64,000 nt of DNA from Tepidiforma bonchosmolovskayae (lineage in GTDB: Bacteria > Chloroflexota > Dehalococcoidia > Tepidiformales > Tepidiformaceae): the NCBI RefSeq assembly GCF_008838325.1, contig NZ_CP042829.1, positions 372,001-436,000 on the forward strand, read 5' to 3'. Below are positions 32,964 through 60,565 of the stretch, piece by piece. The position numbers were made by a program, and so were the translations under genes. Below the pieces are notes generated by a model that made no database searches, was not told where the DNA came from, and was given only the letters and a program-made list of their open reading frames with translations. Each line of letters starts with the position of its first letter. Position 1 is the stretch's first letter.

Positions 32964-34367
32964 ATGACGACGGCACCTGAAGCGATCGTTGGCGAATACA
33001 AGTGGGGGTTCTACGACCCGGAGGAGGCGCTGTTCAAGGCGAACAAGGGCCTGAGCCGGGAGATCGTGAACATCATCTCGGACATGAAGGGCGAGCCGCA
33101 GTGGATGCGCGAGTTCCGGCTGCGGGCGCTCGAGATCTTCTGGCAGAAGCAGGACCCGCCCTGGGGCAGCCCGCAGCTGAAGGAGATCAACTTCGACGAC
33201 ATCCACTACTACGTGAAGGCGACCGACCGGGACGAGCGCTCGTGGGATGACGTGCCGGAGTACATCCGGCGGACGTTCGACCGGCTCGGCATTCCGGAGG
33301 CGGAGCGGAAGTACCTCGCGGGCGTCGGGGCGCAGTACGACTCCGAGGTGGTGTACCACAACATCCGCGAGGATCTGGAGAAGCAGGGCGTCATCTTCCT
33401 CGGCACCGACCAGGCGCTGAAGGAGCACGAGGACATCTTCAAGGAGTACTTCGGGACGGTGGTGCCGCCGGCTGATAACCGGTACGCGGCGCTGAACAGC
33501 GCGGTGTGGAGCGGCGGCTCGTTCATCTACGTGCCGAAGGGCGTGAAGGTGGAGATTCCGCTCCAGGCGTACTTCCGCATCAACACCCAGAACATGGGGC
33601 AGTTCGAGCGGACGCTGATCATCGCGGACGAGGGGAGCCAGGTGCACTACGTCGAGGGGTGCACGGCGCCGATCTACCGGAGCGACTCGCTGCACAGCGC
33701 GGTGGTGGAGATCATCGTGAAGCGGGGCGCGCGGGTGCGGTACACGACCATCCAGAACTGGTCGAACAACGTGTACAACCTGGTGACGAAGCGCGCGGTG
33801 GCGTACCAGGACGCGGTAATGGAGTGGGTGGACGGCAACCTCGGCTCGAAGCTCACGATGAAGTACCCGAGCGTGTACCTGATGGAGCCGGGCGCGCACG
33901 GCGAGATCCTCTCGCTGGCGTTTGCCGGGAAGGGGCAGCACCAGGACGCGGGCGGGAAGATTGTGCACGCGGCCTCGAACACGACGTCGACCATCATTTC
34001 GAAGTCGCTCAGCAAGGACGGCGGCCGGACGAGCTACCGGGGCCTGCTGAAGGTGTACGAAGGGTGCGAGAACGTGAAGTCGACGGTGCGGTGCGACGCG
34101 CTGCTGCTCGATGAGGAGTCGCGCTCGGACACGTACCCGACGATGGAGATCGACGCGCCGGACGTGCACATCCAGCATGAGGCGTACGTTTCGAAGCTTG
34201 GCGAGGACCAGCTGTTCTACCTGATGAGCCGCGGGCTTTCGGAAGAGGCGGCGGCCAAGATGATCGTGAACGGCTTCGTGGAGCCGATTGTGAAGGAGCT
34301 CCCGATGGAGTACGCCGTGGAGCTGAACCGGCTGATCGAGCTGCAGATGGAGGGCGCGGTCGGCTGA
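32964..34367 (+). CDS. sufB: Fe-S cluster assembly scaffold SufB
   Basis: 467 aa. Forms the SufBC2D complex and receives sulfur from SufSU. Family landmarks: [43 protein letters not shown], the beta-helix core with [12 protein letters not shown] (the conserved Cys that accepts sulfur), and [25 protein letters not shown]. Strong RBS before ATG. Confidence 0.97.
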
Positions 34368-34400
34368 GGCCGGCCCGACCGCCGAACCCGCAATGCGAGC

Positions 34401-34419
34401 CCGGCACGATGCGTGCCGG
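34401..34419 (+). other. intergenic hairpin before sufD
   Basis: Perfect 7-bp stem CCGGCAC/GTGCCGG with loop GATGC, immediately upstream of the sufD GGAGGAG site. Probably modulates stability or translation between sufB and sufD. Confidence 0.4.
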
Positions 34420-34431
34420 CGGAGGAGCTGT

Positions 34432-35646
34432 ATGACATCAACAACCGAGGAACGGGTCCGAATTACGGCGGCCGCGCGGGCGCTGGGCGAACAGCTCGGC
34501 GACCCCGCCTGGCTGGCCCGCCTGCGCGCCGAGGCTGCAGCGCTGGCTGATGAACTCGAGTGGCCCGACAGCTACCAGTCGCGGCCGTGGAAGTACTACG
34601 ACGCGCGGTCGATCGACCTGGCGCGCTACCCGGTCGAACAGGATGAATCGATTGCAGTCGAGGCCGACGACGCCGTCACGGTGACGACGCACGGGTTCGC
34701 GGAGGGCGCGACCGCGGAGCGGCTGGCCCAGCGGCTCGGGTCGGCGGTAGCGGCGGGGACGGACCGGTTCACCGCGCTGCACTACGCGTTTTTGCGGGAA
34801 GCGGTCATCGTCGATGTGCCGGCGAATGCCGAGCCGGCGGCGCCCGTGCGTATCCGGCGGTCGGTGAGCGGCGCGCAGCTGACGACGCCGCACACGGTCA
34901 TCGTGACGGGTCCGAACAGCCGGGTGACGGTGGTCGAGGAGTACACCTCGGACGAGGCGGAGATCCTCGCGGTGCCGGTCGCCGAAATCTTTCCCGGGCC
35001 GGGCTCCGAGGTTCGCTACTACGTTGTGCATCGCTGGGGGCCGGCGACGCGGTCGTTTGGGTACCAGCGGATGCTGGGGGCGGAGCGGGATGCCGCCTTC
35101 CAGAACCTCCAGCTCGTGCTGAGCGGGAGGGTCGTGAAAGGGCAGCTGGAGTCGTCGCTCATTGGCCGGGGCACAGCGAGCGAACTGCTCGGCCTGGCGT
35201 ACGGCCGCGGCGAGGAGTACGTCGATTTCTACACGCTGCAGGACCACATCGGGCCGGATACGCGAAGCGACCTGCTCTACAAGGCGGCGCTGCGCGATTC
35301 GGCGCGGTCGGTGTACTACGGCCTGACGCGCGTGGGGCTGGAAGCGAAGAACGCTGACGCGAACCAGGAGAACCGGAATCTGCTCCTGAGCAAGACGGCG
35401 CGGGCGGACAGCGACCCGGTGCTGGAGATCCTGACGAGCAACGTCATCCGTGCGTCGCACGGTGCGACGGCGGGGCCGGTGGACGAGGAGCAGCTCTTTT
35501 ACCTGCAGACGCGCGGCATTCCGCTCCCTGTCGCCGAGGGGATGCTCGTGTGGGCGTTCCTCGAAGACGTAGTGGCCCGGGTGCCTGATGCGGGCCTGCG
35601 GGAGGAGCTCCTTGGGCTGCTCGAGGCGAAGGTGAGGGGCAGCTGA
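34432..35646 (+). CDS. sufD: Fe-S cluster assembly protein SufD
   Basis: 404 aa partner of SufB with the same beta-helix. N-terminal WPDSYQSRPWKYYDARSIDL resembles the SufD start. The core has VDFYTLQDHIGPDTRSDLLYKAAL, where the His is part of the cluster site, and the C-terminal HGATAGPVDEEQLFYLQTRGIP is conserved in SufB/D. ATG 34432 follows GGAGGAG. The stop overlaps the Rieske gene (TGATG). Confidence 0.95.
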   Translation: MTSTTEERVRITAAARALGEQLGDPAWLARLRAEAAALADELEWPDSYQSRPWKYYDARSIDLARYPVEQDESIAVEADDAVTVTTHGFAEGATAERLAQRLGSAVAAGTDRFTALHYAFLREAVIVDVPANAEPAAPVRIRRSVSGAQLTTPHTVIVTGPNSRVTVVEEYTSDEAEILAVPVAEIFPGPGSEVRYYVVHRWGPATRSFGYQRMLGAERDAAFQNLQLVLSGRVVKGQLESSLIGRGTASELLGLAYGRGEEYVDFYTLQDHIGPDTRSDLLYKAALRDSARSVYYGLTRVGLEAKNADANQENRNLLLSKTARADSDPVLEILTSNVIRASHGATAGPVDEEQLFYLQTRGIPLPVAEGMLVWAFLEDVVARVPDAGLREELLGLLEAKVRGS

Positions 35647-35957
35647 TGGGGTGGACCGCCACCATGGCAGCAGATGCGGTGGCGCCGGGCACGGCGAAGG
35701 TGTTCGAGGCCGGCGGACGGCGGATCGCAATCTGCAACACCGGCGACGGGTATTACGCAATTGACGACGTTTGTACCCATGACGGCGGACCGCTCGACCA
35801 GGGGCAGCTGAGCGGGAAGGAGATAGAGTGCCCAAGGCACGGTGCGCGCTTCGACGTGACGACCGGCCGGGCGCTCTGCCTCCCTGCTGTGCGCCCGGTG
35901 CGCACCTACCCGGTGCGCGTCCAGGACGGCGTTATCGAGGTCGATCTGCCAGCCTGA
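35646..35957 (+). CDS. Rieske [2Fe-2S] ferredoxin-like protein
   Basis: 103 aa, cytosolic. Cluster ligands C43-x-H45 (CTHDGGPLDQG) and C62-x2-H65 (CPRHGARFD), as in bacterial NirD/BphF-type ferredoxins. In suf operons of Chloroflexota and Actinobacteria such proteins often sit between sufD and sufS; a role as electron donor or client-carrier in assembly is inferred. Overlaps sufD by one base-sharing TGATG. Confidence 0.92.
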   Translation: MGWTATMAADAVAPGTAKVFEAGGRRIAICNTGDGYYAIDDVCTHDGGPLDQGQLSGKEIECPRHGARFDVTTGRALCLPAVRPVRTYPVRVQDGVIEVDLPA

Positions 35958-35969
35958 AGGAGGTGGCCG

Positions 35970-37220
35970 GTGCTTGACGTACGGCGCATTCGGCAGGACT
36001 TCCCTATCCTGCGGCAGCAGGTCAACGGGCGGCCGCTTGTCTACCTCGATAACGCGGCGACGACGCAGAAGCCGCGGCAGGTGATCGAGGCGCTCGTGCG
36101 TTACTACGAGACGTCGAACGCCAACATCCACCGGGGTATCCACACGCTCGCGACCCGGGCTACCGAGCAGTACGAGGATGCCCGCCGGAAGGTGGCGCGG
36201 TTCATCGGGGCGCGCGGCCCGGAGGAAGTGGTGTTCACCCGGAACGCGACCGAGGCGATCAACCTGGTGGCGCGGGCGTGGGGCGACGAGCACATCGGCG
36301 AGGGCGACGAGATCGTCCTCACGCTGATGGAGCACCACTCAAACATCGTGCCGTGGCAGCTGCTGGCGCGACGGAAGGGCGCGACGCTGCGGTACGCGGG
36401 CATCACGGACGACGGGAAGCTCGACCTTGACGAGCTTCGGCGGCTCATCGGGCCGCAGACAAAGCTCGTGGCCGTGACCCACATGTCGAACGTGCTGGGC
36501 ACCATCAACCCGGTCGCCGACATCGCGGAGATGGCGCACCGGGCCGGCGCGCTGCTGCTGGTCGACGGCGCGCAGAGCGTGCCCCACCTGCCTGTCGACG
36601 TCCAGGCGCTGGGGGCGGACTTCCTCGCGTTCTCGGCGCACAAGATGCTGGGGCCAACCGGCGTCGGCGTCCTGTGGGCGCGGGCGGAGCTGCTGGAAGC
36701 GATGCCGCCGTTCCTTGGCGGGGGCGACATGATTGCGGTGGTGCGCCCGGAAAGTTCGACGTGGGCGGAGCTGCCGCATAAGTTCGAAGCCGGGACACCG
36801 AACATCGCGGACGTCATCGCCTTCGGGGCGGCGGTCGACTACCTGGAAGGCATCGGGATGGCGAACGCCCGGCGGCACGAGGAGGAGCTGACGGAGTTCG
36901 CCCTCGAGCGGCTGCGCCGGGTGGCCGGGGTTCGGATTTTCGGGCCGTCCTCGGCGAGCGAGCGGGGCGGCGTGGTGAGCTTTGCGATGGAGGCCGCCCA
37001 CCCGCACGACGTCGCGACCATCGCCGACGGGTACGGGGTGGCGATCCGGGCCGGGCACCACTGCGCGCAGCTGCTGATGCGCGCACTCGGGGTGCCGGCC
37101 ACGAGCCGGGCAAGCTTCAGCATCTACAACGACGTGGACGACATCGAGGCACTGGTCGAGGCGCTCGAGGGCGTGAACCGCGTGTTCGGAGAAGGACGTG
37201 AGCGAACCGCCGTTCGATGA
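35970..37220 (+). CDS. sufS: cysteine desulfurase SufS
   Basis: 416 aa class II desulfurase, PLP-dependent, supplying sulfane sulfur to SufU. YLDNAATTQKP, NIHRGIHTLA, VDGAQSVPHL, the PLP lysine in FSAHKMLGPTGVG, and the catalytic Cys loop RAGHHCAQLLM are present. GTG start 12 bp after the Rieske stop with AGGAGG. The 3' end overlaps sufU by 23 bp. Confidence 0.96.
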   Translation: MLDVRRIRQDFPILRQQVNGRPLVYLDNAATTQKPRQVIEALVRYYETSNANIHRGIHTLATRATEQYEDARRKVARFIGARGPEEVVFTRNATEAINLVARAWGDEHIGEGDEIVLTLMEHHSNIVPWQLLARRKGATLRYAGITDDGKLDLDELRRLIGPQTKLVAVTHMSNVLGTINPVADIAEMAHRAGALLLVDGAQSVPHLPVDVQALGADFLAFSAHKMLGPTGVGVLWARAELLEAMPPFLGGGDMIAVVRPESSTWAELPHKFEAGTPNIADVIAFGAAVDYLEGIGMANARRHEEELTEFALERLRRVAGVRIFGPSSASERGGVVSFAMEAAHPHDVATIADGYGVAIRAGHHCAQLLMRALGVPATSRASFSIYNDVDDIEALVEALEGVNRVFGEGRERTAVR

Positions 37221-37656
37221 CCTTTACCGGGAGCTGATCCTGGACCACTACCGGAGGCCGCGGAACCACGGCCCGCTGGCCGCCCCGACGGTACAGGCAG
37301 AAGGGGTGAACCCGGTGTGCGGCGACGAGATTCACCTTGACCTGGCCATCGATAATGGAGTCATCGCGGACCTTGGCTTCTGGGGGCAGGGGTGTTCGAT
37401 TTCGCAGTCGAGCGCCTCGATGCTGACGGAACGGCTCAAGGGGCGCCCGCTGGCCGAGGCCGAGGAGGTTGCGGGAAAGGTACGATCGATGCTGGTGGAG
37501 GGCGCGTCGCCGGACCCATCGCTCGGCGACCTCGAGGCGCTCGAGGGCGTCGCGAAGCTGCCGGTGCGGGTGAAGTGCGCGCTCCTCGCGTGGAACGTTT
37601 TGCTTGAAGCGCTGCGGCAGGCGAAGGCCGCCGCACAGGAGGAACACCATGGCTGA
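37198..37656 (+). CDS. sufU: zinc-dependent sulfurtransferase SufU
   Basis: 152 aa IscU-like protein. Ligands C41 and D43 (NPVCGDE), C66 (GQGCSISQSSASM) and C127 (RVKCALLAW). The insertion between the last two, with the GRPLAEAEEV region, is typical of SufU rather than IscU, pairing it with SufS. Starts at GTG 37198 inside sufS with a GAAGGA site. Overlaps sufT. Confidence 0.95.
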   Translation: MSEPPFDDLYRELILDHYRRPRNHGPLAAPTVQAEGVNPVCGDEIHLDLAIDNGVIADLGFWGQGCSISQSSASMLTERLKGRPLAEAEEVAGKVRSMLVEGASPDPSLGDLEALEGVAKLPVRVKCALLAWNVLLEALRQAKAAAQEEHHG

Positions 37657-37975
37657 TACCGAAACTCCGCAGGCCCCGACGTATGAACAGCTCCGCGAGA
37701 AGCTCCGGGAAGTGAAAGACCCGGAGATCAACATGAGCATCGTGGACCTTGGGCTGGTGTACGACATCCAGTACGACAACGGCGACGTGCTGGTGACGAT
37801 GACGCTGACGAGCCCGGGGTGCCCGCTCGGCCCAATTATCCGGGGCGAAGCGTATGCGAAGCTGCGGGAGCTGCCGGGCGTGAAGGACGTCGACGTGCAG
37901 ATTGTCTGGAACCCGCCGTGGGACCCGCGGACGATGGCGAGCGAAGACGTGAAGATGGCGCTCGGGATCTGGTGA
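37649..37975 (+). CDS. sufT: MIP18/DUF59-family Fe-S maturation factor SufT
   Basis: 108 aa. LREVKDPEINMSIVDLGLVYDI and VTMTLTSPGCPLGPIIRGEA (hyper-reactive Cys) are the DUF59 signatures; SufT helps load clusters on target proteins. ATG 37649 overlaps the sufU stop and has AGGAGG upstream. End of the operon; only 10 bp to the convergent crotonase gene, with no terminator seen. Confidence 0.93.
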   Translation: MADTETPQAPTYEQLREKLREVKDPEINMSIVDLGLVYDIQYDNGDVLVTMTLTSPGCPLGPIIRGEAYAKLRELPGVKDVDVQIVWNPPWDPRTMASEDVKMALGIW

Positions 37976-38861: not shown

Positions 38862-40610
38862 CTACTTGCCGCCGACGACCGCGACGGCTTCGCCGGGCTC
38901 GGGCTCGTGGGCGACGGCGCCCCGGGCGGGCAGGGCGCGGCTGCCCTTTTCCGCGACGCGGTAGACGAGGCTCTTCCCGGAGGCGAGCTTCCACTGGGCA
39001 TGGAGGGCTGGCAGGCTGGCGAAGAAGAAGGTAATCACGGCCATGAGCGGCCACATCAGCAGGCCGGTGAGGTAGACCCAGCGGGACACGTAGGCGGGAC
39101 GCGGGCCGCGGGTCCGCAGCTCGAAGACGATCATGACGAGGAGGGGGAAGAGGCAGAGGGCCACGAGGATGCCCGGGAGGTTGAGCCACATGGTCGGCTC
39201 GAAGATGCCCTCGGGCCCGATGCGGAACCAGCGCGAGGGCTCGAGGAGGTGCTCGGGGTGCCAGCCGGTGCCGGGCACCTCGTAGCGGCGCACCCACCAG
39301 CCCGGCAGCGGCGCGCTGAACCGGGTGGCGAAGCGAGAGGGAAGGAAGATGCCGAGGGTGACGATGTACCACTGGGCGGCCCAGAGCACGTGGACCTTGG
39401 TGACGGCGCCGGCGAGGAGGAGGCGGCGGCGCCAGGAGAGCGGGGAGCGGGGGTGCATGGCGGCGCGCCAGGCGTAGGGGACGTCGCTGGCGCCCCAGGC
39501 GTGGCGGACCGACTGGGCGTAATGGGCTTTCAGCGTCTTCCAGTAGCCATCGGCGAGGACGCAGTCGTTGCCGAGCGGGAGAAAGAGCGGCTCGACGTTG
39601 ACGTCATCGCCGAGGGTGTAGGAGCACTTGAGGTAGAGGTGCCAGTCCTCGGGGATGACCTCTTCGTCCCAGTAGTCGACTTCGTGGAGCATCTGCCAGG
39701 AGAGGGAGTAGCAGCTCGTGGGGAAGCGGACGCTGCCGGGGATGAGGAGGTTGGAGGTGCGGTTGATGCCGGAGAGGCCGTCGGGGATGCGGAGGGGCGC
39801 GGGGATTTCCCAGATGTTGTTGGAGTTGAAGATGGTCGGCTGCCAGAAGGTGCGGTAGGGCTTCCTGGCCGTCAGGAAGAGGTAGTTGAGGGCGGCAAAG
39901 TGGGAGGGATGGAAGACGGCATCGGCGTCGCAGCTCGTGACGGTGTAGCGGAGGATATCGTCCCCGCCGTTTTCGATGAGGCGGATGTGGGCTTCGCGGG
40001 CGGCCCAGGCCTCGTTCGAACCCTTGCCAGGGGTTTCCCCGGGGAGGCCGGCCGGGTGGTAGGTGGCAAAGAAGTCGGCAAAGACGCCGGGGTAGCGGGC
40101 GAGAAGCCGGGCAGCCTTTTCGCGGGACCCGGGTTCGCGGTCCTCCATGGCGAGGACGACGACCAGCTGGCTGGCGACGGACTGGGCCGCGAGGGAATCG
40201 ATGGTCCGGGCGAGCCCTTCTTCGGATTCGCGGTAGTTGGGGATAATGACGAGGTGGCGGGGCCACGACCAGCGGTCGGGCCGGCCTGCGCGGGCAGTCT
40301 CGGCGGCGTATTTGGCGCGCCAGTCGGTCGCCTTCCAGCGTTCGATGCGGCGGAGGCCGACGGAGCAGGCGATGGCGACCGAGTAGCTGCGGAGGAGCCA
40401 GTAGACGAAGAAGGCGACGCTCAGGACGGCGAAGAGGAGGGGCGCCTTGAAGGGGCCCCAGAAGATGAAGCTGATGAGGAGGAGGGAGAGGGCAAGGGGG
40501 ATGGTGTTGCCGATACGCTCCCGGAGCGGGGAGCTGGCGTAGACGGAGAGGACCGGCTTTTCGCCGCGAGATTGCGCCGGAACGGCGGAAACGGAAGGCC
40601 TGGAGACCAT
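38862..40610 (-). CDS. membrane glycosyltransferase, GT2 family (cellulose-synthase-like)
   Basis: 582 aa. Two N-terminal TM helices, then a GT-A domain: LVIIPNYRESEEGLARTIDSL, the SCDADAVFHPSHF D-x-D, and PEDWHLYLKCSYTLGDD (general-base ED). Then come four or more C-terminal TM helices. A processive or mono-glycosyl transferase making a surface polysaccharide is likely; there is no QxxRW, so not cellulose synthase proper. A TTG at 40631 is an alternative start, but ATG 40610 fits better. Its leader carries a cyclic-di-AMP riboswitch. Confidence 0.85.
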   Translation of the reverse strand: MVSRPSVSAVPAQSRGEKPVLSVYASSPLRERIGNTIPLALSLLLISFIFWGPFKAPLLFAVLSVAFFVYWLLRSYSVAIACSVGLRRIERWKATDWRAKYAAETARAGRPDRWSWPRHLVIIPNYRESEEGLARTIDSLAAQSVASQLVVVLAMEDREPGSREKAARLLARYPGVFADFFATYHPAGLPGETPGKGSNEAWAAREAHIRLIENGGDDILRYTVTSCDADAVFHPSHFAALNYLFLTARKPYRTFWQPTIFNSNNIWEIPAPLRIPDGLSGINRTSNLLIPGSVRFPTSCYSLSWQMLHEVDYWDEEVIPEDWHLYLKCSYTLGDDVNVEPLFLPLGNDCVLADGYWKTLKAHYAQSVRHAWGASDVPYAWRAAMHPRSPLSWRRRLLLAGAVTKVHVLWAAQWYIVTLGIFLPSRFATRFSAPLPGWWVRRYEVPGTGWHPEHLLEPSRWFRIGPEGIFEPTMWLNLPGILVALCLFPLLVMIVFELRTRGPRPAYVSRWVYLTGLLMWPLMAVITFFFASLPALHAQWKLASGKSLVYRVAEKGSRALPARGAVAHEPEPGEAVAVVGGK

Positions 40611-40639
40611 ATGCGGGGTGGCCTCGAACAAGGTCTTCC

Positions 40640-40775
40640 TACGCCGCCGAGGTTAGCTGCCGGGCTGCGACCGGAGATAGCCGCTCCGCCGTCACCGGGT
40701 TTCGAGCCGGTCCGGGCGGATTCGCCCCGAGAACTGGTTCCCCCGTTCTGCCCGGAGGGGCAGACTAGGCGCTGC
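40640..40775 (-). promoter_or_regulatory. cyclic-di-AMP riboswitch (ydaO-yuaA class)
   Basis: Minus-strand leader of the glycosyltransferase. In order: P1 5' side (GCGCC, 40772-40768); hairpin CTGCCC-CTCC-GGGCAG (40763-40748); GGGGGAACC (40744-40736); GGGGCGAATCC (40728-40718); CCCGGCAGCTAACCTCG (40664-40648); GGCGGC closing P1; then GGAAG (40639-40635). These are the invariant blocks of the ydaO aptamer in the right order and spacing, about 135 nt. No terminator is seen between it and the ATG, so control may be translational or by readthrough. Confidence 0.9.
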
Positions 40776-40797
40776 GGACACGGGGTCCGCATGCTGC

Positions 40798-40826
40798 ATC
40801 GTTCGCCCGGTACGCGTAAGCGTCAA
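40798..40826 (-). promoter_or_regulatory. promoter of the riboswitch-glycosyltransferase transcript
   Basis: TTGACG (40826-40821), 17-bp spacer, AACGAT (40803-40798) on the minus strand. It would start RNA about 15-20 nt before the riboswitch P1 helix, supporting both assignments. Confidence 0.55.
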
Positions 40827-45167: not shown

Positions 45168-45241
45168 GCGGGTGTGGTTCAATGGCAGAACGCGACCTTC
45201 CCAAGGTTGAGGTGCGGGTTCGATTCCCGCCGCCCGCTCCA
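45168..45241 (+). tRNA. tRNA-Gly(CCC)
   Basis: 74 nt with encoded CCA (45239-45241). Acceptor GCGGGTG/CGCCCGC (one G-U), D-arm GTTC-AATGGCA-GAAC, anticodon stem CGACC/GGTTG with loop TTCCCAA (anticodon CCC at 45200-45202), T-arm GCGGG-TTCGATT-CCCGC. The 3' half is the presumed attachment site of the adjacent integrase. Confidence 0.95.
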
Positions 45242-45300
45242 GTTTTCCGAATCTATAATTGACGCCTTGAGCCCCCAGAATTGCTTAGCCGCCTCAACAG

Positions 45301-45319
45301 TTGGCTACCGTTTGGCTAC
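45301..45319. repeat. direct repeats, possible integrase arm sites
   Basis: Two copies of TTGGCTAC (45301-45308 and 45312-45319), 11 bp apart, in the non-coding strip between tRNA-Gly and the end of int. Spacing of about one helical turn and position suggest arm-type binding sites for the integrase N-terminal domain. Confidence 0.4.
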
Positions 45320-45387
45320 GGGCTGGATCGCAGGGATGGAGGGGATGACGCGGTGCTGTCTGATGGGCGCCGGCGCCGGGGGACTGT

Positions 45388-46512
45388 TCAGCCCTCGCGG
45401 AGCGCCCTCGCGAGGGTCTCGACTGCCGCGCGGCGGGAGGTCATGTCTGGGGTCCCGGCGTAGACGTCGAGCGTGAAGCTGGCCCGGCTGTGGCCGAGCA
45501 CCTCGGCGATGACCCGCGGTGGGACGCCGCGCTCAGCCATCAGCGTCGCGGCGGCGTGGCGCAGGTCGTGCAGCCGCAGGCGCAGCCCGTGCCGCTGTGC
45601 GTGCCTGCCCCACCAGGCGGTGATCGCATCGGGCCGCACCGCCTCCATGCCGGCGGTGAACACCCACTCGTCCCCGGCCCAGCCGGCGCCCGCTGCCATG
45701 CGGAGCGCGAGCTGCTCCCGGCGCCATGCGCGCAGCTCACGCACGGCGTCGGCGGCCAACGGCACGACCCGCTCGCCCGCTGCGGATTTCGTCGGGCCCT
45801 CGACGATGGTGCCGCGGTGGGTGATGGTGCGCGACCGGCGGATGGCGACCGTCGCAGCATCGAGGTCGACGTCGCCCCACTGCAGCCCGGCCAGCTCGCC
45901 GCGGCGCATCCCGGTGTGCAGCGCCAGCACGACGAGCGCGCGCCACGGGTGTCCCACGTCCGCGAGGGATGCCAGCACCGCGGACGGACGCACTGCCTGC
46001 AGGTCGGGCAGCCGGCGCCCCGGGGCCGGCGCCTCGACGGCATCGGTGACGTTGCGCGGCAGCAGCTGCAGGCGGACGGCATCCTCGAGCGCCCGGTGCA
46101 GCACGCGGTGCAGACTGGCCACAGTCGTCGGTGACAGGCCGGCGCCCAGCCACCCGGCATAGGCCGCCTGGACGTGCAGCGGCCGCAGCTCCTGCAGGCG
46201 ATGCCGGCCCAGCGATGGGATGAGGTGCACGCGCACTGCCGTGCGATAGCGCTCGAGCGTCGTCTCGCGCAGGTGCGGCCTGCGCATCTCGAGCCACTGG
46301 CGCAGCCAGTCGGCGACCGTCAGCCGGCTCGGCTCGGCGGCGATGCCGGTCTCGACCTCGCGGACGAGCTCGGCGAGGCGGGCCTCAGCGTCGCGTTTGG
46401 TGCCCGCGACAGTCTCCCAGATGCGCCGCCGGCGCCCCGTCTCCGGGTCGCGGTCGAGCTCGACGCTGATGCGCCAGGTGCGGTCACCCCGGCGCTGGAT
46501 GCTGCCGCGCAT
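45388..46512 (-). CDS. tyrosine-type phage integrase
   Basis: 374 aa. N-terminal arm-binding domain with a three-strand start (GSIQRRGDRTWRISVELD), SAM-like core-binding domain (VADWLRQWLEMRRPHLRETTLERYRTAV), and a catalytic domain with R203 (TGMRRGEL), K242, H315 and R318 (HDLRHAAATL), H341 (LGHS) and nucleophile Y351. All catalytic residues are intact. Transcribed toward tRNA-Gly(CCC). RBS GAGGGCA. Confidence 0.95.
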   Translation of the reverse strand: MRGSIQRRGDRTWRISVELDRDPETGRRRRIWETVAGTKRDAEARLAELVREVETGIAAEPSRLTVADWLRQWLEMRRPHLRETTLERYRTAVRVHLIPSLGRHRLQELRPLHVQAAYAGWLGAGLSPTTVASLHRVLHRALEDAVRLQLLPRNVTDAVEAPAPGRRLPDLQAVRPSAVLASLADVGHPWRALVVLALHTGMRRGELAGLQWGDVDLDAATVAIRRSRTITHRGTIVEGPTKSAAGERVVPLAADAVRELRAWRREQLALRMAAGAGWAGDEWVFTAGMEAVRPDAITAWWGRHAQRHGLRLRLHDLRHAAATLMAERGVPPRVIAEVLGHSRASFTLDVYAGTPDMTSRRAAVETLARALREG

Positions 46513-46545
46513 CGCCTGCCCTCACAGTCTCAGTTGGCCGGAGCG

Positions 46546-47760
46546 TTAGTTGACAATGGTGATCGGTGCTGTAGCCGTGATGCCATCACAGGCGACCGTA
46601 ACCGATCCCGTGCCGGGGCTCGTGTTGGACCCAATGGTCCAGCTCCATGACACGGCGCCATCAGGCCCCGCCGTCTTCGGAATGAGACCCTGCGCGGTGG
46701 ATGTGCGCCCAGACGGAGTGATGTAGGTGATGGTGCAGCCGGCGCCCGCCCATGCCTGAGCAGTCAGCCTTGCAGTCGCACCTGCCTTGACGGGCGATGT
46801 GAGGCTCACAATTGTCAGCTGCCGAGGCTGCGGCGGCGGCGGAGGTGGCGGCGTGGGAGTCGGTTGCGACGGTGGTGGAGGTGGAGGAGATGCTGGGGTC
46901 GGCTGGGGAGCCGGTGCTGCGCTGCCGCTGCCCCATAGCCCTCGCCCGGCCTCCCGCGCCTCCCTCTGGGCGGATAGGAACGTTTCTGCGCACGCGACAT
47001 CTGGCGGGAACGTCGCCACCTGGGCAAATCCTTGCTGCACCAGTGCCAGGTTGACGAATGTGCCGTCGCTCGCAACCACGAATCTCAGCAGTCGGTCATA
47101 GCGGTCTCGCTCGGAGACATCCCGATAGAGCTTCAGGCGCCCATCACCTAGCAGCCGGCGGTTAGCCTCGGTCGCCTCGCTGTAGAACAGATCGCCACGC
47201 TCCGGTGTGTCGACTCCGATGTAGCGCACACGTGCGGTCGTGGAGCCAATGGTTACGTCGATGGTGTCACCGTCGATGACGCGCACGAGCGTTGCATCCT
47301 CGGGCTGGCGTGACGGAATGCAGGCGGCAGGAAAGCCGCTGGGCGCTCCAGGGCTGCCAGCCGGCGCGCCGGGCGTGGTAGGCGGAGCGGCTGCTGCAGC
47401 GCTGGTCGGGCTGGGCGCCTGCGTTGGGGTCGCTGTCACCGTGGGTGTCGCCTTGGGCGTTGCCGTCGCTGTTGGGGTCCGCGAGGGCTTGGGTGTACGC
47501 GTCGGTGTCGGGGTAGAAATCTCGCTGTCCGGCGATGCCTGCTGCCTCGGCTCATCATCGGCGGCTGAGCCGATCGCCCCGAGCAGCAGCAGGCCGACGA
47601 TCACGCCAATGATGACCTGCGCCCTCGTGCTGCGCCCTCGATACCAGCGCCAGGTGCGCATCGCTGCCACAGCGGACCACCGCGCACCAGCTCGTGCTGC
47701 CGCCACGGACGCTCTCCCCGTGGCTCTTATTGCCGACCGCATCACGCCCCTGGGATCCAT
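46546..47760 (-). CDS. membrane-anchored thermonuclease (SNase domain) with C-terminal Ig-like domain
   Basis: 404 aa: basic cytosolic start, TM at about 47-66, Thr/Pro-rich stalk (about 83-145), SNase domain at about 157-277 with the full Staphylococcus nuclease active site (D163, R179, D184-T-P-E187, R223), a poly-Pro linker, and an Ig-like beta domain (about 314-404). Would be exposed outside the cell. Sits between int and the repressor on their strand, typical of a lysogenic-conversion gene. ATG 47760 preferred; M7 and a longer start at 47871 are possible. Confidence 0.85.
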   Translation of the reverse strand: MDPRGVMRSAIRATGRASVAAARAGARWSAVAAMRTWRWYRGRSTRAQVIIGVIVGLLLLGAIGSAADDEPRQQASPDSEISTPTPTRTPKPSRTPTATATPKATPTVTATPTQAPSPTSAAAAAPPTTPGAPAGSPGAPSGFPAACIPSRQPEDATLVRVIDGDTIDVTIGSTTARVRYIGVDTPERGDLFYSEATEANRRLLGDGRLKLYRDVSERDRYDRLLRFVVASDGTFVNLALVQQGFAQVATFPPDVACAETFLSAQREAREAGRGLWGSGSAAPAPQPTPASPPPPPPSQPTPTPPPPPPPQPRQLTIVSLTSPVKAGATARLTAQAWAGAGCTITYITPSGRTSTAQGLIPKTAGPDGAVSWSWTIGSNTSPGTGSVTVACDGITATAPITIVN

Positions 47761-47831
47761 CACTCTCTGGCTCCGATCATCGGTGATCGCCGATTCTAGC
47801 GAGTCCGACCTGCCGTGTGGTAACGACTTTC

Positions 47832-47852
47832 TGTCGCGTCTCCATCGCGACA
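47832..47852. promoter_or_regulatory. inverted repeat upstream of the thermonuclease gene
   Basis: Perfect 7-7-7 repeat TGTCGCG / CGCGACA, followed at 47862-47869 by the palindrome GACATGTC. Possible operators in the 185-bp control strip of the nuclease gene. No convincing -35/-10 pair is seen. Confidence 0.4.
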
Positions 47853-47918
47853 TCTGGCGACGACATGTCACATGGCATGGCCATGGTCGCTTCCCCGTCT
47901 GCTAGCATGGGCACCGCG

Positions 47919-47934
47919 TAGAACATTAGTTCTA
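47919..47934. promoter_or_regulatory. SOS-box-like palindrome
   Basis: TAGAAC-ATTA-GTTCTA, a perfect palindrome with the GAAC-N4-GTTC core of the LexA box used by Gram-positive and related bacteria. It lies 12 bp before the plus-strand small ORF at 47946, which runs antisense to the repressor, and 160 bp before the nuclease gene on the other strand. LexA-controlled transcription at this point is plausible. Confidence 0.5.
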
Positions 47935-47945
47935 AGGGTGGGGTC

Positions 47946-48230
47946 ATGCAGGTCGTGCTCATTGTCGACGTCGAGGGCGCCCAGGCTGCGGAGCGGCTGG
48001 CTCGGCAGCTGGAGGCGGCTGGGGTGCGGGTGGTTGCTGGGCCTCGGCTTGTGCCCTCTCCTCTCGAAGCCGAAGGAGTCCTCGCGCTGTCAGTCCAACA
48101 ATCTCAAGTTCGCGATCGTTCAGCTGAGCCAGAAGATCGGCCAACCAGGGAGGAATCGGCGGTGCTTGGACATCATCCGGCGCCGCGTAACCGGCGGCTT
48201 CGAGAACCTGCCGGGCCGGGAGACCGGTGA
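47946..48230 (+). CDS. possible small ORF antisense to the phage repressor
   Basis: 94 codons. The first 37 or so look coding: high GC3 and a strand-helix-strand start (MQVVLIVDVEGAQAAERL, VRVVAGPRL), preceded by GGTGGGG and the SOS-box-like site. After that GC3 drops and the frame runs antisense to the conserved HTH of the repressor. It may be a real short antirepressor-like gene, a truncated one, or chance. Not recognised. Confidence 0.3.
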   Translation: MQVVLIVDVEGAQAAERLARQLEAAGVRVVAGPRLVPSPLEAEGVLALSVQQSQVRDRSAEPEDRPTREESAVLGHHPAPRNRRLREPAGPGDR

Positions 48231-48408
48231 CTCGAGCGATGGCTAGCGCATTTTCGAGGGACGGATTCGCCTTGCCGCTGAGCCAGTTGCTGACCTGCGA
48301 CGGGTTTACCTGCAGCCTGACGGCCAGTTGGCCTTGGGTCATTCGCTCGCGGTCTAAAAATTCGCGCAGGATAACAGGGATGGAGACGGCCCGGCGAGTT
48401 TCGGTCAC
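47959..48408 (-). CDS. phage repressor, XRE family
   Basis: 149 aa. HTH_3 domain at about residues 20-70 (MTQGQLAVRLQVNPSQVSNWLSGKANPSLENALAIARV), then a linker and a low-complexity Gln/Pro/Ala tail. No S24 autoprotease domain, so induction cannot work by RecA-stimulated self-cleavage. Starts with GTG 48408, exactly 7 bp after a TAGACT -10 (48420-48415), giving a leaderless message like lambda cI from PRM. Divergent from cro. Confidence 0.85.
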   Translation of the reverse strand: MTETRRAVSIPVILREFLDRERMTQGQLAVRLQVNPSQVSNWLSGKANPSLENALAIARVTGLPARQVLEAAGYAAPDDVQAPPIPPWLADLLAQLNDRELEIVGLTARGLLRLREERAQAEAQQPPAPQPPPAAEPAAPQPGRPRRRQ

Positions 48409-48414
48409 GGCCCG

Positions 48415-48480
48415 AGTCTAGCAGTCACGTAGGCAGCTGCGCCGAACTCAATTGACTTTCTCGCCAAGATTTGGCATTGT
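48415..48480. promoter_or_regulatory. divergent repressor/cro promoters and operator
   Basis: Rightward: TTGACT (48452-48457), 17 bp, CATTGT (48475-48480); +1 about 48487, three bases from the cro ATG. Between the boxes lies the palindrome GCCAA-GAT-TTGGC (48463-48475), a likely operator, with a further TTGGC half-site inside the cro start. Leftward: TAGACT (48420-48415) for the leaderless repressor, no clear -35, which suggests activation by a bound repressor. Confidence 0.6.
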
Positions 48481-48489
48481 GTCCCAGCA

Positions 48490-48717
48490 ATGAATGTTGG
48501 CACCAAACACCGCACCTCTCCAAGCAACGTCCGCCTGCGCCAGCTGGTCGAGGCATCGGGCCTCAGGCACATGGTGATTGCCGAACGATCCGGGATTCGC
48601 AGAGACGTCCTGAGCAAGCTTCTCACTGGCCGGCGACCACTTTCTTGGGAGTACGTGGCCCGCCTTGCGCCGGTGCTCGGCGTTCCCATGGAGGCATTTG
48701 CGGAGGGCGAGAGATGA
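48490..48717 (+). CDS. Cro-like XRE-family regulator
   Basis: 75 aa, a single HTH domain (RLRQLVEASGLRHMVIAERSGIRRDVLSKLLTGRRPLSWEYVARLAPVLGV). Opposite the repressor, sharing the operator strip, so a Cro analogue. No ribosome-binding site and predicted +1 three bases upstream, hence nearly leaderless. The stop overlaps the next gene (ATGA). Confidence 0.8.
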   Translation: MNVGTKHRTSPSNVRLRQLVEASGLRHMVIAERSGIRRDVLSKLLTGRRPLSWEYVARLAPVLGVPMEAFAEGER

Positions 48718-48947
48718 GCGGCTGGATGCCCGACAGCCCGCTGCTCACAGTCGCCGAGACGGCACGCGTGCTGCGGGTGAGCGAGTCCGCTCTGCGCGAG
48801 TGGATGCGGCATCACCGCGACGGCCGGCCGCGGGTGCCGCACATCCGCCTGGGGCGGCGGGTGCTCATCCCGCGCGCGTGGGTGGATGGCGTGATTGCGA
48901 GCGCCGGAAATGCGCAGCCCCCGGGTGGGGGCCCGAGGGCTGCTTAG
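48714..48947 (+). CDS. excisionase-like MerR-type HTH protein
   Basis: 77 aa. LLTVAETARVLRVSESALREWMRHHRDGRPRVPHIRLGRRVLIPRAWVDGVI is the HTH_17/excisionase domain (wing RLGRRVLIP). Could be Xis for the nearby integrase or a second early regulator. ATGA overlap with cro. Confidence 0.78.
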   Translation: MSGWMPDSPLLTVAETARVLRVSESALREWMRHHRDGRPRVPHIRLGRRVLIPRAWVDGVIASAGNAQPPGGGPRAA

Positions 48948-48973
48948 ACCAACCACTAGGAGGTTGCACACAG

Positions 48974-49228
48974 ATGGTAGCACGTCCAGGTCGACCAATT
49001 AGCACGCAGGGCCTCCTCGAGGAGGCCAAAGTACAGGCGCTCGCGCTCCGGCACGAGCTCGAGCCCCATGACCAGTGGGAGGCCGCCGCCCTGGAGGTGG
49101 CGGAGATTCTCATCGCCGAGGAGCGGCTCGTCGAGGCGCAACGGCTCATCCGGAGGCTCCGCGAGCGGGACCGCTGGGAGAACCAGCGGCACGCCGAGAT
49201 CGATGCAGTGTGGAGGGAGCGGGCATGA
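48974..49228 (+). CDS. hypothetical phage early protein
   Basis: 84 aa, largely helical and charged (EEAKVQALALRHELEPHDQWEAAALEVAEILIAEERLVEAQRLIRRL). Not recognised. AGGAGG upstream is partly enclosed in a small CAACC/GGTTG stem. The stop overlaps the next start (ATGA). Confidence 0.65.
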   Translation: MVARPGRPISTQGLLEEAKVQALALRHELEPHDQWEAAALEVAEILIAEERLVEAQRLIRRLRERDRWENQRHAEIDAVWRERA

Positions 49229-49335
49229 GCGGTGCTGCCATCGCGACCATCCTCATCCAGTCCGTCCTCGTGGGCTCGGCGCTCGTCCTCGGCGCCGTCG
49301 TCGTCCGCGACTTCCTCGGGGAGGTGCGGCGATGA
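49225..49335 (+). CDS. tiny membrane protein
   Basis: 36 aa with one TM segment (AIATILIQSVLVGSALVLGAVVV) and a basic end. Overlaps both neighbours by 4 bp, which together with the RBS GGAGGGAG supports translation. Function unknown. Confidence 0.55.
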   Translation: MSGAAIATILIQSVLVGSALVLGAVVVRDFLGEVRR

Positions 49336-49664
49336 CGGCTCGCAGCGGACAGCAGGTGCAGGACGCCCTGCTGGGGCTGCTCGATCTGCACGACGCAGTG
49401 AGCAGATGGGACGTCGAGCGCGCGTCCACGGTGCTCGAGCGCCTCGACCCCGAGCCACTGGTCGATTTCGACGTGCCCCCTGATACCCCGGATGCGTGGC
49501 GGGACAGCGACCCGTACCCCGACGTCATCACATGGAGACTCGTGCGGGAGGGCGTGATCGCAGCGCTCGGCGGCCCGCGCATCAACGGCTGGACATGGCT
49601 GATGGCGATGTCGCGCATCGGCGACTGGGTCGTCAGGCATGCAGCCCGGGAGGTGCGACGATGA
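49332..49664 (+). CDS. hypothetical phage early protein
   Basis: 110 aa, acidic, with helices (VQDALLGLLDLHDAVSRWDVERASTVLERL) and a Trp-rich end (INGWTWLMAMSRIGDWVV). Not recognised. Coupled by ATGA on both sides. Confidence 0.6.
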   Translation: MTARSGQQVQDALLGLLDLHDAVSRWDVERASTVLERLDPEPLVDFDVPPDTPDAWRDSDPYPDVITWRLVREGVIAALGGPRINGWTWLMAMSRIGDWVVRHAAREVRR

Positions 49665-49984
49665 GCGGGGCCGCCATCGTCCGCGCCCGCTACCGGGCCC
49701 TCGACCCCGGGACGTCGAGGCAGGCCGCCAGCGAGCTCAACGCATCGGGTGCGGCCCGGACGCAGGCGGCGTGGTTCCTCGCCGCGGTGCGCGACCATCC
49801 CGGGCTGACGGCATCCGAGCTCGCGCAGCTGTCTGGCGGCCGGTTCGACCGTTACGCCGCCAACCGCCGTTTGGCCGACCTCGAGCGCGCCGGGCTTGTG
49901 CGGAAGGGTGAGCCACGCCGGGCGCCGTCTGGCCGGCCGGAGGTCACGTGGTGGCCGGCCGAGCGCCAGGGGGTGCTGCTGTGA
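49661..49984 (+). CDS. winged-helix hypothetical protein
   Basis: 107 aa. FLAAVRDHPGLTASELAQLSGGRFDRYAANRRLADLERAGLVRKGEPR has the wHTH pattern (recognition helix then wing), followed by a W-W strand. Probably DNA-binding; target unknown. Overlaps the next gene (GTGA). Confidence 0.65.
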   Translation: MSGAAIVRARYRALDPGTSRQAASELNASGAARTQAAWFLAAVRDHPGLTASELAQLSGGRFDRYAANRRLADLERAGLVRKGEPRRAPSGRPEVTWWPAERQGVLL

Positions 49985-50241
49985 GGCCGCTTGTCTCCGA
50001 CCTCGAGCTCCTCCGGGCGATCGCCGCCCACATCGAGGAGCATGGCGTGCCGCCGACCTACCGGGAGCTCGCCCAGCGGGTCGGCATCCGGCACGTGTCG
50101 GTGGCGTTCTACGGCACATGCAGGCTCATCGACCGCGGCTGGGTACGGATGGCGTGGTTCGCCCGCTCGCGGGCCATCCGCATCACCGACGCCGGGCGAG
50201 CAGCCCTCGACTCAGCAACTCCAGCGGAGGTGACCGCATGA
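49981..50241 (+). CDS. LexA-N-like winged-helix protein
   Basis: 86 aa. LLRAIAAHIEEHGVPPTYRELAQRVGIRHVSVAFYGTCRLIDRGWVRMAW resembles the LexA DNA-binding domain (ExGxPPTxRELA pattern) but lacks any protease part. It could compete at SOS-type sites or act as a phage regulator; this is inference from the fold. GTG start overlapping the previous stop. Confidence 0.68.
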   Translation: MRPLVSDLELLRAIAAHIEEHGVPPTYRELAQRVGIRHVSVAFYGTCRLIDRGWVRMAWFARSRAIRITDAGRAALDSATPAEVTA

Positions 50242-51107
50242 CAACTCAGCCAACCCTTGCCGAGCCGCCGGCTCCAGCTGCCGACGTCCCGGCCCAGCCA
50301 GACGCCGGCGCCCTGCTCGAGCAGGTGGTCATCGCCGGCGACCTAGCCCGCCTGACCCCGGCGCAGCGGGTGGCCTACTACCGGTCGGTCTGCGACAGCC
50401 TGGGCCTCAACCCGCTGACGAAGCCGTTCGACTACCTCACCCTGAACGGCCGCCTCGTCCTCTACGCGACCCGCACCGCCACCGACCAGCTCCGCGCCAG
50501 CCGCGGCATCTCCGTCGAGATCACGAGCCGCGAGATGCTCGCCGAGGCGGGCCTGTACGTGGTGACGGCCCGCGCGACCTCGCGCGACGGGCGGACGGAC
50601 GAGGCCGTCGGCGCGGTGTCGGTAGCAGGCCTCAAGGGCGAGCCCCTCGCCAATGCCATCATGAAGGCCGAGACGAAGGCGAAGCGCCGGGCGACCCTGT
50701 CGCTCGTCGGTCTCGGCTGGCTCGACGAGAGCGAGGCCGAGAGCGTGCCAGGCGCCCGGCCGGCGGTTGTCGACCGGGAGACCGGGGAGATCACCGGGGA
50801 GGTCATCGAGCACACGGAGCGGCCGCAGCCTGGGCGCCGCGCTGCAGCGCCGGCGCCGGCGGACAGCCAGGACGAGCTCACGCCGGAGCGGTGGCAGGCG
50901 CTGGCAACGACGCTGAAGGCCAACGGGCTCACCAAGCCGCAGCTGCTGGCATTCCTGGAGGAATCGCTGGGCGATGAGGCGCATGGGCTGACCGCGTCGC
51001 AGCGCGTGGCGCGGTGGTTCCGTCACAACCCGGACGCCGACCACGTGGTGCTGGTCGCAGAGGTTCAGCGGTGGGTGCGCCGCAACGCCGCGGAGCTGCT
51101 CGAGTGA
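50238..51107 (+). CDS. phage recombination protein, RecT-like annealing candidate
   Basis: 289 aa. The conserved block YYRSVCDSLGLNPLTKPFDYLTLNGRLVLYATRTATDQLRASRG ... VVTARATSRDGRTDEAVGAV ... NAIMKAETKAKRRATLSLVGLGWLDESE is one I associate with phage single-strand annealing proteins in early recombination modules. The C-terminal part is a separate helical domain after an Ala/Pro linker. Assignment by pattern and by position before the replication genes, not by any search. Confidence 0.65.
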   Translation: MTTQPTLAEPPAPAADVPAQPDAGALLEQVVIAGDLARLTPAQRVAYYRSVCDSLGLNPLTKPFDYLTLNGRLVLYATRTATDQLRASRGISVEITSREMLAEAGLYVVTARATSRDGRTDEAVGAVSVAGLKGEPLANAIMKAETKAKRRATLSLVGLGWLDESEAESVPGARPAVVDRETGEITGEVIEHTERPQPGRRAAAPAPADSQDELTPERWQALATTLKANGLTKPQLLAFLEESLGDEAHGLTASQRVARWFRHNPDADHVVLVAEVQRWVRRNAAELLE

Positions 51108-51310
51108 GCCGGCGCATCCCGTTCTGGTACGTGTGCCGGCCGGGTGTCGTCATGGCCGACGTGCGGCGGTTCATGGTGGTCTACGAGGCTCGATTCGGCG
51201 TGCTGAGCCCGGACGAAGCTCGTGTGTTTCCGCCTGGCGCGTGCCCGGCTGCGCTGTGGCATCGCGGGTTGCTGCACCCTCTTGGAATCGCCTGGCTGGG
51301 GAGGAACTGA
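51104..51310 (+). CDS. hypothetical phage protein
   Basis: 68 aa, starts at GTG 51104 (GTGA overlap). Aromatic-rich (RRIPFWYVCRPG, RRFMVVYEARFGVL). Not recognised; 2 bp before the replisome organizer. Confidence 0.5.
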   Translation: MSRRIPFWYVCRPGVVMADVRRFMVVYEARFGVLSPDEARVFPPGACPAALWHRGLLHPLGIAWLGRN

Positions 51311-51312
51311 CG

Positions 51313-52230
51313 ATGACGTGGGCGAAGCTCTCCGATGACTTCTGGTGCCACCCAAAGATCGCCGGGCTCTCTGACAGGGCTTTCCGCCTGCATGTCAATG
51401 CGATCTGCTGGTCAGCTGCGCTGGAGACGGACGGCGTCATCGAGCCTGGCATCCTGCCGTCCCTGCGCGGGACGCAGGCAGCTGTGAGGGAGCTCGAACG
51501 TGCCGGACTCTGGGAGCGCGTGGATGGCGGCTGGGCCATCCACGACTTCCTGTGCTACAACCCATCGCGCTCCTCGCTCGAGGAGCGCCGCTCCAGGCGG
51601 GCGCAGGCTGGACGCATGGGCGCCGCTCGGCGATGGCAGGAGACACCGTCAGACCATGGCACCAGCCATTCCTTATCTATAGGCAGTGACACGTCCACGG
51701 CGATGGCAACCGGGATGGCAAATGCCATGGCAAATGCCATACCAGATGCCACAGCTGGTGCCATGCCGGGTGCCATGACCAATGACCGTGACATGTCCAT
51801 GCACCCGTACCCGATCCCGATCCCGTACCCGGAATGTGACTCCTCCTCGCTTCGCTCGTCGTCGTCACATTCGGCGCGCGCGTCGCGCGCTGCTGACGAC
51901 GACGACCGGTCTCCGCCCTCGAGCGACGACTGGCTGGATGCGCCGGATGAGCCGCCCGAGGTGCGCGAAATCCGCGACCTCGTGCTCACTGCAATGCCGC
52001 GGAAATACGCCGCGGACCCGCTGACGTTCGACGAGGCTGCGCAGCTCGGGCGCGACTACGCCGGCGCCCACGAGCTGGTCGCCCAGGCAATCGCCGAGTG
52101 CCGGCGCCGGCGCCAGCTCCCATTCCCGCGGAATCTCCGCGGCATTCTCCAGGAGGCTCGACGCGATGACTCACCTCGGGACGATCCTGTCCTCGCTCAG
52201 CTCCGGGCAATCGGCGCGCTCGTGGAGTGA
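51313..52230 (+). CDS. phage replisome organizer / replication initiation protein
   Basis: 305 aa. N-terminal domain MTWAKLSDDFWCHPKIAGLSDRAFRLHVNAICWSA ... ELERAGLWERVDGGWAIHDFLCYN is the wHTH start common to phage replisome organizers. The middle is unusual: four-residue units (MATG MANA MANA IPDA TAGA MPGA) encoded by 12-bp iterons, then a PYPIPIPYP patch and a Ser/Asp-rich linker. The C-terminal helical domain (VREIRDLVLTAMP ... AIAECRRRRQLPFPRNLRGIL) resembles DnaD/loader-contact domains. The 3' end overlaps the DnaC-like gene by 65 bp. Confidence 0.75.
   Translation: MTWAKLSDDFWCHPKIAGLSDRAFRLHVNAICWSAALETDGVIEPGILPSLRGTQAAVRELERAGLWERVDGGWAIHDFLCYNPSRSSLEERRSRRAQAGRMGAARRWQETPSDHGTSHSLSIGSDTSTAMATGMANAMANAIPDATAGAMPGAMTNDRDMSMHPYPIPIPYPECDSSSLRSSSSHSARASRAADDDDRSPPSSDDWLDAPDEPPEVREIRDLVLTAMPRKYAADPLTFDEAAQLGRDYAGAHELVAQAIAECRRRRQLPFPRNLRGILQEARRDDSPRDDPVLAQLRAIGALVE
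51703..51786 (+). repeat. 12-bp iterons, candidate phage replication origin
   Basis: Seven head-to-tail 12-bp units inside the replisome organizer: ATGGCAACCGGG, two exact ATGGCAAATGCC (51715-51738), then degenerate ATACCAGATGCC, ACAGCTGGTGCC, ATGCCGGGTGCC, ATGACCAATGAC. An A/T-rich stretch (51668-51683, TTCCTTATCTATAGG) lies just upstream and could be the unwinding element. In-gene iterons in the initiator are the arrangement of lambda O and many siphovirus origins. Confidence 0.6.
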
Positions 52231-52981
52231 CCCGGTCGTCTGCCCCGGCTGCGGCTCTGACGACGTCGAGCCTCCGGAGCTGCGGCACCGGTGCTGCGTC
52301 TGCCGCGACGCCGGGCGCATCCGCCGGAGCTGGCCAGTCGGGCATGCGCAGTTCGGTCGCTCTGAGCTCTGCCCGGCGTGCAGCGGCGTGAGCGCACGCG
52401 GCAGCTCTCCTCCGCCGCCGCCCGAGGCGCGGCTTCGCATCCCGGCGCGCTACGCCCAGGCCCGCATCGCCAACTGGGAGCCGCCGGATGGTGGACCGCG
52501 CCGCGCAGCCGAGGCCTACGTCGCATCGTGGCCGCCGCCGAAACCGGTGCTGCTCCTCGCGGGCGACCGCGGCGTCGGCAAGACGCACCTTGCCTGCGGC
52601 ATCCTCCGCGAGGTGCTGGCCCGCCACGGTGTGCAGGGTCAGTTCTGGCCGGTGGTCGACCTGCTCGACCGCCTGCGCCGCACGGCCGACCCCGACCGAG
52701 CGACCGAGTCGCTCGACGACGTGCAGGAGCAGATGCTGCGCGTGCCGCTGCTGGTGCTGGATGACCTCGGCGCCCACCGCGGCACCGAGTGGGCAGAGGA
52801 GCGCCTGTTCGGGCTCATCGACGCCCGCTACCGGGACTCGCTGCCCATGGTGGTGACAACGAACCTGACGCTGCAGGAGCTGGCGCCGCGGGTCAGGTCG
52901 CGGCTGGTCGACACCGCGTCGTCGGTCGTGGTGCAGGTCTCAGGGCCAGACCGGCGGATGACGCCGCGAGGTGCCGCATGA
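52166..52981 (+). CDS. DnaC-like helicase loader ATPase
   Basis: 271 aa. N-terminal zinc ribbon (CPGCGSDD ... CCVCRDAG ... CPAC), then an AAA+ domain: Walker A AGDRGVGKTHLACGIL, Walker B LLVLDDLGAHRGTEWAEERLF, sensor TTNLTLQEL, arginine finger region RVRSRLVDTAS. Loads the host helicase at the phage origin next to it. ATG 52166 lies inside the previous gene; the next gene overlaps the stop. Confidence 0.88.
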   Translation: MTHLGTILSSLSSGQSARSWSDPVVCPGCGSDDVEPPELRHRCCVCRDAGRIRRSWPVGHAQFGRSELCPACSGVSARGSSPPPPPEARLRIPARYAQARIANWEPPDGGPRRAAEAYVASWPPPKPVLLLAGDRGVGKTHLACGILREVLARHGVQGQFWPVVDLLDRLRRTADPDRATESLDDVQEQMLRVPLLVLDDLGAHRGTEWAEERLFGLIDARYRDSLPMVVTTNLTLQELAPRVRSRLVDTASSVVVQVSGPDRRMTPRGAA

Positions 52982-57297: not shown

Positions 57298-57306
57298 GGG
57301 GAGCCC

Positions 57307-58545: not shown

Positions 58546-58546
58546 G

Positions 58547-60555: not shown

Positions 60556-60565
60556 GGGGGATAGC

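Follow-up and report, generated by a model that had tools for sequence, protein, structure and literature searches.

Does a c-di-AMP riboswitch in Tepidiforma bonchosmolovskayae control a membrane glycosyltransferase, and if so, how? The question is raised by a leader sequence in a 64,000-nucleotide stretch of this genome (hereafter the window), which lies directly in front of a gene for a GT2-like membrane protein. The recognized roles of c-di-AMP are in K+ and osmolyte transport and, in Actinobacteria, in connection with cell-wall hydrolases; to our knowledge, its biology has been little studied in the Chloroflexota. The reading that we favor, with a probability of about 0.75, is that a switch of the ydaO/yuaA family with its own promoter forms the 5' end of the GT2 mRNA and regulates translation through a hairpin, most likely as an OFF switch, with surface-glycan synthesis as its probable target. 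The genome is a single contig of 2.75 Mb, and the close relatives available for comparison are Tepidiforma flava and other Tepidiforma (Dehalococcoidia, Chloroflexota).

The RF00379 covariance model matches the leader over its full length (model positions 1-134, E = 2.4e-10; Table 1), which bears out the identification of a ydaO (c-di-AMP) riboswitch in the initial annotation. The sequence blocks named there, GGGGGAACC, GGGGCGAATCC, CGGCAGCTAACCTCG, GGCGGC and GGAAG, are all found on the minus strand in the order given, and the alignment to RF00379 contains P1 and the conserved core (GGGGGA.CC, GGGG.GAAUC and CAGCUAACC), with differences at some consensus positions. Searched against every Rfam family at its gathering score, the window as a whole gave just two matches, a tRNA and this single RF00379 element. 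The promoter proposed upstream of the aptamer also stands: a TTGAC box with a spacing of 16-18 nt, similarly far from the aptamer core, recurs in 31 of 45 related leaders, and transcription therefore probably starts just before the aptamer. The element, which would be transcribed from this sigma-70-type promoter as the leader of the glycosyltransferase mRNA, is one of seven RF00379 copies above the gathering score in the genome, and the lowest-scoring and most divergent among them. The genome also encodes one diadenylate cyclase domain (PF02457, E = 2.4e-43). Among the genes downstream of the other six copies (L001-L006) are those for an MFS transporter (L001) and for a SulP transporter (L005); others encode small proteins, and neither of the two that were scanned had a Pfam match.

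Table 1. Features of the riboswitch-glycosyltransferase locus, in window coordinates.
Feature	Position	Strand	Evidence
Promoter: TTGACG (40826-40821), 17-nt spacer, AACGAT (40803-40798)	40798..40826	-	Sequence and recurrence in relatives
c-di-AMP (ydaO/yuaA) riboswitch aptamer, RF00379	40627..40781	-	56.2 bits against a gathering score of 38 bits
Aptamer loop strand of pseudoknot (UCUCC), partner of GGAAG	40673..40677	-	Comparison of 55 leaders
GGAAG: pseudoknot 3' strand and 5' arm of platform hairpin	40635..40639	-	Leader comparison, fold
Expression-platform hairpin	40593..40639	-	Fold of -17.7 kcal/mol; homologue covaries; invariant ORF start
Hairpin outer helix: GGAAG.CC / GG.CUUCC, 3' arm in codons 4-6	within 40593..40639	-	
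Hairpin inner helix: GAGGCCA / UGGUCUC	40625-40619 / 40609-40603	-	
GAGG, probable Shine-Dalgarno, paired in hairpin	40622..40625	-	Sequence, fold; GAGG in most relatives
Membrane glycosyltransferase, GT2 fold, 582 aa, ATG start	38862..40610	-	Start conserved in genus; PF13632 below cut-off; AlphaFold model

Elsewhere in the window, a tRNA gene (45168-45238) is followed by a tyrosine integrase gene (45388-46512, minus strand) and, further right, by genes for a large terminase (55699), a portal protein (57307), a head protease (58547), a major head protein (59350) and a tail protein (62672); a prophage appears to lie within 45168-64000, integrated next to the tRNA gene. A SUF iron-sulfur operon (32964-37975) encodes two SufBD-core proteins (SufB and SufD), a Rieske protein, a SufS-like class-V aminotransferase, a NifU-like SufU and an FeS assembly P protein.

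The open reading frame downstream of the aptamer can be read from an upstream, in-frame TTG at 40631 or from the ATG at 40610, 16 nt past the end of the RF00379 match. Other Tepidiforma genomes have the ATG and the 15 nt after it unchanged whereas the TTG is not conserved across the genus, and we therefore assign the start to the ATG and reject the TTG. GGAAG was likewise discarded as a candidate ribosome-binding site, being the 3' strand of the aptamer pseudoknot and the 5' arm of the hairpin that follows. Five related loci (L085, L088, L089, L093 and L118) lack an ATG where the platform hairpin ends; their frames would need a CTG or other unusual start directly after it.

With a score of 23.4 bits, the encoded protein falls just below the Pfam GT2 cut-off of 27 bits; PF13632 is matched by 12 of 18 aligned relatives at E-values of 0.001 or better (best 1.5e-11). 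Three motifs, DAD (228-230), PEDW (320-323) and QSVRHAWG (366-373), are essentially invariant among the aligned relatives, and a search by sequence found no relative of solved structure. An AlphaFold model built from 18 sequences (mean pLDDT 75.6) matches known structures in Foldseek at E = 1e-8; in VIA-align it superimposes on E. coli BcsA with Z = 19.4 over 376 residues, on hyaluronan synthases (HAS) with Z = 16.6-18.4 over 370-414 residues and on the Pyrobaculum mannosyltransferase PcManGT with Z = 19.4 over 326 residues. From these fold matches, together with the GT-A fold, membrane helices and DxD and (E)ED motifs, the protein is placed, on its predicted structure, among BcsA/HAS-type membrane enzymes with a GT2 fold. 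The description of the riboswitch's direct target as cellulose-synthase-like thus holds for the fold and fails for membership of the BcsA family: no PilZ domain is detected by Pfam in the window protein or its aligned relatives, where BcsA has one at its C-terminus, and QSVRHAW replaces the QxxRW motif.

Conservation of the pairing between the aptamer and the glycosyltransferase gene was examined in two collections of loci. In the first, 61 genomes of the class were searched with the protein and the loci then scanned with Rfam. The covariance model places RF00379 directly upstream of the glycosyltransferase in 20/20 loci (L038-L057), and likewise in four of nine more distant or fragmentary ones (L058, L059, L060 and L065). 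The second, drawn from genome contigs, comprises 79 loci, among which 54 form a closer Chloroflexota group (L071-L120, L122, L123, L128 and L140). Here 49 of the 54 have the aptamer core motif immediately in front of the orthologous gene, a figure that is not a count of independent events, since the loci share descent and the two collections overlap; RF00379 matches lie at the corresponding places on the contigs of the genomes searched. Among the loci outside the 49, a contig end cuts off the leader region of L090, and L120 is without the core motif. In three loci the aptamer heads an operon with the same glycosyltransferase as its last gene, the order being riboswitch, PMT_2-type GT-C gene and GT2 in L119 and L122, and riboswitch, glycosidase-like gene, GT-C and GT2 in L112.

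The synteny that the initial annotation had proposed checking is therefore extensive. A pairing that persists where the proteins are only about 40% identical, and that survives rearrangement of the operon, would be difficult to account for if it had no function, and we conclude that it is evolutionarily conserved and not a product of chance. A vestigial or accidental aptamer is in substance refuted by this conserved synteny, with a promoter and a covarying hairpin in attendance, and we give that explanation next to no weight, for all that the window copy scores lowest in its genome. No other neighbor is conserved as widely in the Chloroflexota set, where no conserved operon partner was found beyond close relatives; no riboswitch leader was found in the scanned relatives of 31-36% identity from Patescibacteria, Spirochaetia and Anaerolineae, and a search for relatives on plasmids found none. 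Two further observations concern individual loci. The Tepidiforma KatS3mg062 MAG has two glycosyltransferase copies with a leader on separate contigs (L071 and L072; 99% and 87% identical to the window protein), which are either paralogues or the result of a mixed bin, and one relative has a ZMP/ZTP riboswitch (RF01750; L052:13-98) near its glycosyltransferase locus.

Every leader examined has, directly after P1, a hairpin that opens with GGAAG or its equivalent. Outside Tepidiforma this platform hairpin mostly ends at the foot of the start codon, with GAGG in its 3' arm or loop. When the 3' halves of 29 hairpins were swapped, the native combinations gave a total of -346.0 kcal/mol against a mean of -265.7 kcal/mol (sd 12.3), with 0 of 2000 permutations as low; the swapped halves fold worse, and hence the two arms covary. 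A U-tract follows the homologous hairpin in those orthologous leaders that are most distant (L110, L113, L115 and L116), so that it would act there as an intrinsic terminator. The hairpin in the genus of the window has no U-tract, and appears to have been rebuilt around the start codon, UGGUCUC of the inner helix being nucleotides 2-8 of the open reading frame. The Tepidiforma form has a folding z-score of -2.42, with 1 of 200 shuffles as good. The 18 nt that begin the frame (ATGGTCTCCAGGCCTTCC) are identical in all seven Tepidiforma sequences; this invariant six-codon run is the joint longest in the gene, and includes two rare codons, AGG (used for 2 of the gene's 46 Arg residues) and CCT (for 2 of its 46 Pro residues). 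A fold test on synonymous-codon versions of the Tepidiforma hairpin was not significant, 36% of the versions folding as well or better, so that the case for this form rests on conservation and the shuffle test. Because the probable Shine-Dalgarno GAGG is paired with the start of the frame, the Tepidiforma platform probably works at the level of translation. We propose that the GAGG/AUG region is held in the hairpin or released from it according to whether c-di-AMP occupies the aptamer, and that translation of the glycosyltransferase would be regulated in this way.

The direction of switching depends on how the aptamer and the hairpin divide the strand that they have in common, GGAAG being part of the pseudoknot as well as of the hairpin. 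The crystallized ydaO sequence has the loop ACUCCUUCG and the tail CGAAGGAG in the corresponding places (PMC5393176). Among the 55 leaders compared, those of the Tepidiformaceae, including the window, set CUCC against GGAAG, which pair only with a bulged A. Orthologous leaders outside the family have compensated pseudoknots (CUUCC/GGAAG, CCUCC/GGAGG and ACCUUC/GAAGGU), and a contiguous pseudoknot of 5-8 bp is found in distant orthologous leaders and, unlike in the window copy, in 6/6 of the other copies in the genome. Swapping loops and tails among the leaders gave a mean of 12.8 for native pairs against 12.1, a weak test because the family with the bulged pseudoknot dominates the set.

Sharing of GGAAG makes an ON switch possible, in which a ligand-stabilized pseudoknot would take this strand from the hairpin and free GAGG and the AUG, so that high c-di-AMP would raise glycosyltransferase synthesis. 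The terminator-type relatives have the same anatomy, their pseudoknot strand GAAGGU being also part of the 5' arm of the terminator. We nevertheless regard an ON switch as unlikely. The weak pseudoknot of the Tepidiformaceae leaders may not compete with the hairpin, and those members of the class that have been tested switch expression OFF, acting by termination (PMC9337991) or, in the case of Corynebacterium glutamicum nlpC, by translation (PMC9960051). OFF at high c-di-AMP is thus the likelier direction by precedent, in an anatomy that would allow ON, and we expect translation of the glycosyltransferase to be most probably off when c-di-AMP is high, as in those members.

The core of the window aptamer departs from the consensus at several positions, GCCGAA being replaced by GCCUAG and UA by AG. 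GCCUAG, AG or AA in place of UA, and the bulged pseudoknot are consistent across most glycosyltransferase leaders of the Tepidiformaceae. Reported contacts of c-di-AMP at site 1 include G8, U71 and A72 (PMC7288161), and in our own alignment some of the altered positions map to these residues. The other departures from consensus also vary in high-scoring copies. These family-wide changes, and bit scores that are low beside those of other copies in the same genomes, might indicate a drifted or variant aptamer that binds c-di-AMP weakly or in one pocket, or binds another ligand. We consider this improbable: the score of the window copy remains well clear of the gathering threshold, higher-scoring copies in this genome also have changes at UA, GCCUAG recurs in L006, a copy unlinked to this gene, and some distant leaders of the same gene are near consensus (L059, 96.2 bits). 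The fuller version of this idea, to which we give a similarly small share of belief, is that the Tepidiformaceae leaders are a ydaO variant with an altered first pocket and a rebuilt, start-covering platform, which would read c-di-AMP differently (single-site or ON), or another nucleotide, in setting surface glycan synthesis. The window leader is likely to bind c-di-AMP.

The product of the enzyme is a separate matter. We think that it probably builds or decorates a surface polysaccharide, whose synthesis would then be coupled to turgor through the switch; such coupling is in keeping with a membrane GT2 placed under c-di-AMP control. The conserved pairing thus predicts that a signal for turgor and the cell wall acts on a surface sugar polymer. 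A competing assignment, which leaves the riboswitch part unchanged, makes the enzyme a non-processive GT2 in a polyprenyl-phosphate pathway, with a GT-C partner and a glycoprotein or teichoic-acid-like glycan as product. PcManGT, understood to be non-processive, is among the top fold matches, and the motif is QSVRHAW, not QxxRW. A PMT_2-type GT-C gene precedes the glycosyltransferase gene in the riboswitch-led operons of L112, L119 and L122, and the distant relatives in Patescibacteria adjoin GT-C and WecA/MraY-like genes. No GT-C homologue of the kind in these operons was found in Tepidiforma, however, and over about 370-414 residues the enzyme follows BcsA/HAS in its transmembrane layout and C-terminal part. 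A non-processive role is therefore a credible minority view, and we retain surface-polysaccharide synthesis as the working assignment. The Patescibacteria loci (L124-L146) form a conserved cluster that is without a riboswitch.

A GT2 target is seemingly unusual for this riboswitch family, as the initial annotation had remarked: none of the open papers searched, outside which the main survey of c-di-AMP riboswitch genes (Nelson 2013) lies, reports this target. With a conserved switch on a polymer-synthase-like enzyme, the c-di-AMP program would extend to the synthesis of an envelope glycan, and orthologous genes that carry a terminator or a start-covering hairpin according to lineage are a natural series in which to compare the mechanism and direction of switching.

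Among known systems, the enzyme resembles BcsA and hyaluronan synthase in its GT-A domain with flanking transmembrane helices, its DAD and PED motifs and its fold (Z about 16-19), and differs from them in sequence (10-16% identity), in being without a PilZ domain and in its QSVRHAW motif; no Bcs partner genes were seen adjoining it. PcManGT is equally close in fold, with a shorter chain of 345 residues and 14% identity. The leader has the aptamer fold, core blocks and pseudoknot position of Bacillus subtilis ydaO/kimA (RF00379), and like it lies as a separate leader upstream of the regulated gene, whereas the target is a GT2-fold glycosyltransferase and not a K+ transporter, a translational-type hairpin takes the place of the terminator and core residues are derived. 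The C. glutamicum nlpC switch also has no canonical terminator and acts on translation as an OFF switch, as we predict for the window (PMC9960051). Its first target is a peptidoglycan peptidase where the window has a glycosyltransferase, and its proposed blocking interaction pairs the loop CTCC with the RBS where a local hairpin would cover GAGG and the AUG in the window; the seven-gene nlpC operon also includes a glycosyltransferase, as a downstream member (PMC9960051).
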